The position numbers were made by a program, and so were the translations under genes. DNA of 64,000 nt from Rhizobiaceae bacterium (GTDB taxonomy: Bacteria; Pseudomonadota; Alphaproteobacteria; Rhizobiales; Rhizobiaceae). The notes beneath the pieces were generated by a model that was given only the letters and a program-made list of their open reading frames with translations, searched no databases and was not told the DNA's origin. Shown here in pieces: positions 9,601-10,779 of this stretch (position 1 is its first letter; each line of letters opens with the position of its first letter). Location: positions 1,275,001 to 1,339,000 of the forward strand of contig JAILWO010000001.1 of the NCBI GenBank assembly GCA_025698895.1. Direction: 5' to 3'.

Positions 9601-10179
9601 TCAGCCTACCTGCTCGACCTGCTGCACCTCGGGAATGAAGTGCCTCAGCAGATTCTGGATGCCATGCTTGAGCGTGGCTGTGGAGGAGGGGCATCCGGCG
9701 CATGCGCCCTTCATGTTCAGGAACACCACGCCGTTCTCGTATCCACGGAATGTGATGTCGCCGCCGTCCTGCGCCACGGCGGGGCGTACCCGGGTGTCGA
9801 GCAGCTCCTTGATGGTGACGACGATCTCCTCATCCGCCGCATCGTAGAACTCGCCTTCCGCGTCGCGCGCGGCCTCGGATTCCATCCCGCCGGCCGCCAT
9901 GACCGGTTGACCGGTCATGAAATGCTCCATGATGGCGCCGAGAATGGCCGGCTTGAGGTGCTGCCAGTCTGGCTCTTCCGCCTTCGTCACCGTGACGAAA
10001 TCATAGCCGAAGAAGACGCCCGTGACCCCCGGCACCGCAAACAGCCGCCCCGCCAGCGGCGATTCGCCGGACGCGGCTTCGGCGCTGCGGAAATCGGCGG
10101 TTCCCTCCTCCAGCACCACGCGTCCGGGCAGGAACTTGAGCGTGGCGGGATTGGGGGTCGTTTCGGTCTGGATGAACAT
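9601..10179 (-). CDS. NifU/Nfu family Fe-S cluster scaffold or carrier
   Basis: 192 residues from ATG 10177-10179 with GGGAGAG upstream; the frame extends further 5' but only the shorter form starts with the conserved FIQTETTPNP. Residues 1-95 are the Nfu N-terminal domain. The C-terminal NifU domain (about 118-192) carries the cluster-binding CxxC, Cys160 and Cys163, in GACAGCPSS, and the QDGGDI motif. Nfu proteins receive Fe-S clusters from Isc or Suf and deliver them to client enzymes in the cytoplasm. An Irr-like palindrome 42 bases upstream of the start suggests iron control. It is the last gene of the minus-strand run trpS, usp, nfu. Confidence 0.92.
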   Translation of the reverse strand: MFIQTETTPNPATLKFLPGRVVLEEGTADFRSAEAASGESPLAGRLFAVPGVTGVFFGYDFVTVTKAEEPDWQHLKPAILGAIMEHFMTGQPVMAAGGMESEAARDAEGEFYDAADEEIVVTIKELLDTRVRPAVAQDGGDITFRGYENGVVFLNMKGACAGCPSSTATLKHGIQNLLRHFIPEVQQVEQVG

Positions 10180-10220: not shown

Positions 10221-10237
10221 TTTGGAATAATTCTAAA
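10221..10237 (-). promoter_or_regulatory. Candidate Irr box (iron control element)
   Basis: On the minus strand the 17 bases read TTTAGAA-TTA-TTCCAAA. The published rhizobial ICE consensus for the haem-responsive regulator Irr is TTTAGAA-N3-TTCTAAA, so 13 of 14 specified positions match. It lies upstream of the Nfu gene, in a locally AT-rich spot. Confidence 0.6.
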
Positions 10238-10287
10238 ATAGTCCTCGCGCGGCCCGATGGCAAGGTCGGCAGGCATGTGGTTTGCGG

Positions 10288-10779
10288 TCAGGCCAGGCTT
10301 TCCAGGTCCTCGTCCGAGAGGGAATGGGGAACGACCGTGACCGGAATCGCGAATCCGCCCCCCTTGCCCGCGACGGACGAAACAAGCGGTCCAGGACCTT
10401 CCTTGGCGCTGCTGGCCGCCAGCACGAGGATCGCGATGTCCTGATCCTCCTCGATCAGCCTGTGGATCTCCTCCGATGGCTTGCCTTCCCGGACCACCAG
10501 CTCCGGTTCGATGCCGAGATCGGTCCTGATTCGCGTGGCGTGCGTGTTCAGCGTCGACTTCGCGGCTTCGGTGGCCTCGGCGCGCATGATGTCCTCGACG
10601 CCGAGCCATTGCTGGAAATCGCCGGGATCGATCACGTAGAGCAGGACCAGGACGCCGCCGGTCGTGTTGGCGCGGCGGGATGCATAGGCGACCGCCCTTT
10701 CGCATTCCGGCGATTCGTCGATGATCGCCAGGAATTTACGGCGGTGGCCAGCTTCCCGGCTCAGGCGCTTCGAAACCAT
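10288..10779 (-). CDS. Universal stress protein (UspA fold)
   Basis: 163 residues. Begins with a basic leader, then the UspA fold: FLAIIDESPECERAV near the start, a central helix pair, and VLAASS near the end of the domain. The ATP-binding G-x2-G-x9-G-S/T motif seen in nucleotide-binding Usp proteins is not cleanly present, so it may belong to the non-binding class. The role is general stress resistance; the partner is unknown. It sits between trpS and the Nfu gene on the same strand. A strong GC-rich hairpin separates it from trpS. Confidence 0.87.
   Translation of the reverse strand: MVSKRLSREAGHRRKFLAIIDESPECERAVAYASRRANTTGGVLVLLYVIDPGDFQQWLGVEDIMRAEATEAAKSTLNTHATRIRTDLGIEPELVVREGKPSEEIHRLIEEDQDIAILVLAASSAKEGPGPLVSSVAGKGGGFAIPVTVVPHSLSDEDLESLA

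Follow-up and report, generated by a model that had tools for sequence, protein, structure and literature searches.

The founding work on ICE (iron control element) boxes is said to be that of Rudolph et al. in 2006 on Bradyrhizobium japonicum, and in Rhizobium leguminosarum the gene fssA was reportedly named by Todd et al. in 2006 as a target of IrrA. It is the heme-free form of Irr that binds ICE boxes, and in Irr of the R. leguminosarum type the binding of heme is accompanied by a loss of affinity for DNA (PMC7762939); depending on the position of the box the protein represses or activates (PMC7762939, PMC5587712). At the mbfA gene of S. meliloti the ICE overlaps the -35 and -10 elements, and a promoter with four bases of the ICE changed gave, without iron, a signal like the one that the wild type gives with iron; in an irrA mutant of R. 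leguminosarum the mbfA promoter is unrepressed (PMC7540006). The start point of mbfA in R. sphaeroides lies inside the box, a position held to fit repression (PMC3413700).

The window analysed here, i.e. the whole stretch of 64,000 nucleotides, carries a palindrome of this kind upstream of an nfu gene (Table 1), reading TTTGGAATAATTCTAAA on the + strand and TTTAGAATTATTCCAAA on the - strand. Compared to the 17-bp ICE consensus used in the sequence-only reading, TTTAGAA-N3-TTCTAAA, it has one mismatch, located in the TTCCAAA half; this half is the usual form in related Mesorhizobium-type genera. The palindrome reported by that reading is thus confirmed, and it is the sole site in the window with at most three mismatches (shuffle mean 0.06). 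When the 110 bases upstream of the nfu start were dinucleotide-shuffled 2000 times, the best result was three mismatches, obtained once, and a chance match of the box was ruled out by these shuffles together with the conservation in orthologs. A longer box, extended as TAG...CTA outside the 17 bases, showed a weak preference (T at -3 in 23 of 44) and is not claimed. The spacing between box and ATG is 41 bases; the 42 given earlier denotes this same spacing as a difference of positions instead of a number of bases between.

The gene had been called an Fe-S scaffold gene, in agreement with the two domains that we found in its product: Nfu_N (PF08712, 108.4 bits) and NifU (PF01106, 95 bits), both with a cut-off of 27. 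The NCBIfam equivalogs for E. coli-type NfuA and for NifU proper stayed far below their cut-offs (37.2 versus 269.35 and 35.9 versus 273.3 bits, respectively). Genes similar to nfu were matched in 296 of the 297 genomes of the order. An in-frame TTG upstream, at 10263, would as a start codon place the box inside nfu; it was ruled out because Nfu_N begins at residue 3 from the ATG at 10179 and the orthologs start there as well (MFIQT in 174 of 175 N-termini, MFIQI in one). The box is intergenic, with the universal stress protein gene on one side and nfu on the other, which suggests that nfu has its own promoter; a same-strand upstream tblastn match to the universal stress protein gene was obtained in 71 of 80 named relatives.

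Table 1. Features of the nfu locus in the window, and further ICE sites with at most two mismatches in the genome (C1, contig; L001 and L006, extracted loci).
Feature	Position	Strand	Remarks
nfu (fssA-type), Fe-S scaffold/carrier gene	9601..10179	-	Nfu_N + NifU; 192 aa
ICE / Irr box (putative)	10221..10237	-	TTTAGAATTATTCCAAA; 1 mismatch to consensus; kept in orthologs
Predicted -10, CTATTT	10236..10241	-	17 nt from -35; 2-base overlap with ICE; sequence prediction only
Predicted -35, CTTGCC	10259..10264	-	sequence prediction only
Universal stress protein gene	10288..10779	-	upstream of nfu, same strand; context, outside the switch
ICE site	116 nt before cysteine desulfurase-type gene (Pfam class-V aminotransferase)		41 nt from divergent alpha/beta hydrolase gene
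ICE site	44 nt before rirA start		2 mismatches
ICE site	76 nt before ccmA
ICE site	9 nt before ccmC
ICE site, perfect	L001 1536-1552 = C1:1475235-1475251		overlaps end of Peripla_BP_2 binding protein gene
ICE site	138 nt before ABC substrate-binding protein gene		substrate unclear
ICE site	L006 1577-1593 = C1:1909676-1909692		2 mismatches; 39 nt before biotin/lipoate ligase-family gene, followed by DUF6505 gene

We consider it highly probable that the box is a switch at which heme-free Irr blocks transcription of nfu when iron and heme are low, and which is released when iron is high. At low iron and heme, heme-free Irr would bind the box, cover the -10 end and the expected transcription start, and block RNA polymerase; with plentiful iron, heme-loaded Irr would leave the DNA and nfu would be expressed. 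Both the binding of Irr to the nfu box and the direction of control are what we infer for this genome, the latter from the position of the box, which resembles that of the mbfA box and from which nfu would be expected to go down at low iron.

The pair upstream of nfu conforms to the rhizobial promoter pattern CTTGAC-N17-CTATAT at 10 of 12 positions, a score equalled by 4 of 2000 shuffles. A separate sigma-70 scan returned the same pair, shifted by one base; nothing else in the 1.5 kb scanned was promoter-like, and 0.2 hits were expected. Since the predicted -10 extends two bases into the box, the putative start point is expected within it. The property looked for in an Irr-regulated promoter, an ICE-like 17-bp palindrome in the promoter region, is thus present, and it overlaps the predicted -10; this also agrees with the earlier reading, which had made repression dependent on a nearby start of transcription. 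For comparison we took the 114 orthologs with a box at two mismatches or fewer, 109 of which gave a pair of at least 8/12. Counted raw, with many close kin among them and with the shuffle control covering the window only, the predicted -10 of these 109 ends three bases into the box in 62 and two bases into it in 11. It lies within four bases of the box start in all 87 orthologs that belong to the named relatives or to the window's family, and in only 8 of the 22 from other families, the latter count speaking against repression by Irr as the general reading. In the window and in its box-bearing close relatives, a box that overlaps or adjoins the predicted -10 has what would be the geometry of a repressor site. 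Irr could also bind the box and activate nfu at low iron, as at some other promoters, given that it is described as acting both ways by box position (PMC7762939, PMC5587712). We regard this as improbable: a box that serves activation should lie upstream of the promoter, whereas the predicted -10 overlaps the box or lies at most four bases from it, both in the window and in every one of the 75 named relatives with a box at two mismatches or fewer.

The genome (4.76 Mb in 7 contigs) has three Fur-family matches. One of these proteins is of the IrrA type (NF045678, 221.2 bits, cut-off 150) and contains the run DHHHFF, which we read as the probable HXH heme site described in PMC7762939. A fabA-like gene, recognized by eye, is divergent from irr, and no ICE at three mismatches or fewer is listed near irr (C1:1047248-1047742). 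The gene of a second Fur-type protein adjoins that of a metal-type ABC binding protein (also by eye). RirA is encoded as well (272.8 bits, cut-off 193) and an ICE precedes rirA, the two features looked for in an IrrA and RirA network of the R. leguminosarum type.

Throughout the genome there are two perfect ICE, two at one mismatch (the nfu box included) and four at two mismatches, eight sites in all versus two for the reversed pattern. Once three mismatches are allowed, the reversed pattern outnumbers the ICE (30 versus 17 sites), and with no enrichment at that level only the close matches carry weight; for the same reason the three-mismatch sites of this genome were dropped as a regulon. A near-palindromic, ICE-like site with three mismatches, 62 nt before the gene of an OxyR-like regulator (L011 1500-1516 = C1:1878499-1878515), may be due to chance. 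Six of the eight close sites have iron or heme genes as neighbours, namely suf, rirA, ccmA, ccmC, bfd-bfr and nfu. The suf assignment comes from the frames after the cysteine desulfurase-type gene, which by eye read as SufB, SufC, SufD and SufS, and the bfd-bfr assignment from a bfd-like and bfr-like pair some 410 nt after the perfect ICE at C1:1475235-1475251, with a small ORF in between (by eye); neither Pfam nor NCBIfam gave a family match for the bfd-like frame. The remaining two sites, next to genes of an ABC binding protein and of a biotin/lipoate ligase-family protein, are not by plain iron genes and count against the reading. With Irr encoded and the nfu box fitting into the set of iron-gene sites, the interpretation of the sequence-only reading, an element of the Irr type, is supported as far as the sequence goes. 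That another regulator reads the palindrome, be it the second Fur-type protein or RirA, could be argued from the three Fur-family matches and the RirA in this genome. We think this quite unlikely, as the sources cited give a box like this as the target of Irr, and as it also occurs here before rirA and the bfr-like gene, both described as controlled by Irr (PMC7762939).

The sequence-only reading had asked for the palindrome to be looked for in relatives and had named its absence from orthologs as an argument against an Irr box. We scanned up to 300 bases upstream of the nfu starts and found it widely conserved. The first set consisted of 80 named close relatives (Mesorhizobium, Phyllobacterium, Chelativorans, Nitratireductor and others, with many non-independent Mesorhizobium), of which 55 have the box at one mismatch, 75 at two or fewer and 78 at three or fewer. 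Two have none at three or fewer, one being a Notoacmeibacter MAG (L082) and the other Brucella sp. 21LCYQ03 (L101). In the latter the nfu box is eroded to five mismatches, with Ochrobactrum (L102) and Falsochrobactrum (L104) at three, and this looks like a natural loss.

A wider sample of 96 orthologs in the order comprised 75 genus and 36 family labels; the nfu gene of the window is in it, as are 13 members of the window's family. It was drawn from the best 150 matches among 296 matching genomes: 30 loci, plus 66 taken at one per genus label from 119 of the other 120, the one omitted (G039) having a short upstream region. Weaker matches beyond those listed fall outside this sample, which therefore leans to genes nearer the query; within it 22 orthologs have the box at one mismatch, 40 at two or fewer and 57 at three or fewer, while 39 have no site at three or fewer. 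At two mismatches or fewer the box occurs in at least one ortholog of 22 family labels and 32 genus labels, and in 28 of 83 orthologs when the window's family is set aside. Outside the order we covered 68 of 125 matching genomes (28 loci plus 40 more), mostly the best matches with the last few picked by hand; three lacked a recognized start and were dropped, and a single one of the remaining 65 orthologs has a site at three mismatches or fewer (L209, two mismatches).

As a control, 60 permuted palindromes were run on the 80 named relatives and on 95 of the 96 order orthologs (L118 outside). At two mismatches or fewer they gave a mean of 0.03 per set and a maximum of 1; at three or fewer the means were 1.5 and 1.2, respectively. 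The permuted form TTTGAAA-N3-TTTCAAA was found in 53/80 and 14/95 at three mismatches and in 0/80 and 1/95 at two, its high count being taken as a likeness to the ICE itself. In the 27 orthologs of other families with a site at two mismatches or fewer, the inner columns of the box reach 2 bits, its outermost columns 0.36 to 0.71, and most flanks stay below 0.3 (the highest at 0.78); as these orthologs were selected for the site, the evidence is taken from the comparison with the controls rather than from the bit values. It is scarcely conceivable that the box is an A+T-rich -10 region resembling an ICE by chance: it does overlap a -10-like hexamer and its pattern shows no genome-wide enrichment at three mismatches or fewer, but 57 of 96 orthologs in the order versus 1 of 65 outside have the palindrome, the permuted palindromes are near zero at two mismatches, and the conservation speaks strongly against it.

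The conservation has gaps. No nfu box at three mismatches or fewer was found in six family labels (f27, f28, f34, f35, f42 and f45, with two to six orthologs sampled in each), the genomes of which still have Irr/Fur-type matches. Such matches, the weak ones of which may be other Fur proteins, are present in 291 of the 297 genomes of the order, so that a loss of the box tied to a loss of Irr fails as an explanation; with 39 of 96 orthologs lacking the box all the same, the link between Irr and nfu is not universal. Control of nfu by Irr may be an old link that marks the Rhizobiales and was later dropped in several families keeping an Irr-type protein, a proposal based on the close box in 22 of 36 sampled family labels versus a single one among the 65 orthologs from outside the order, and towards which we lean slightly less than away from it. 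If true, it would let one follow how a gene of Fe-S assembly came under control by heme sensing and left it again.

In Brucella melitensis only seven genes were bound by Irr in DAP-seq, and by term counts the main text of that study has zero mentions of NifU, Nfu or iron-sulfur (PMC10374146). This result and the loss of the box in Brucella sp. 21LCYQ03 count against a link between Irr and nfu. In the B. abortus proteome NifU is given at 1.52 (up), and an ICE was predicted for 35 of 55 iron-related proteins (PMC5587712).

Repression of nfu by heme-free Irr, our preferred reading, would tie the supply of Fe-S clusters to heme and iron status through an operator that is common here to iron storage, suf and rirA genes, and would make a widely conserved operator available for testing Irr. 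Though well kept, the nfu box is very probably just an ordinary part of a rhizobial control circuit that is already known. The accepted picture of that circuit is unchanged, this kind of switch being known already; what we add is a test of conservation, a predicted overlap with the promoter, the other ICE sites of this genome, and the distribution across the order, gaps included.

The fssA case of R. leguminosarum reportedly combines the same type of gene and the same regulator as nfu here, in another genus. In the literature covered on Irr, IrrA, Nfu, NifU and fssA, no box for Irr upstream of nfu is named. In Bradyrhizobium japonicum, Irr is degraded on binding heme and is the sole global iron regulator (PMC7762939), whereas this genome encodes both IrrA and RirA. 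The mbfA gene of S. meliloti has a box (PMC7540006) of the same class as that of nfu, and both boxes overlap the core promoter close to the ATG, the promoter of nfu being a predicted one. The S. meliloti ICE controls mbfA, while the box described here precedes an Fe-S scaffold gene, and repression by Irr at low iron, demonstrated by mutation at mbfA (PMC7540006), is for the nfu box a prediction from its sequence.
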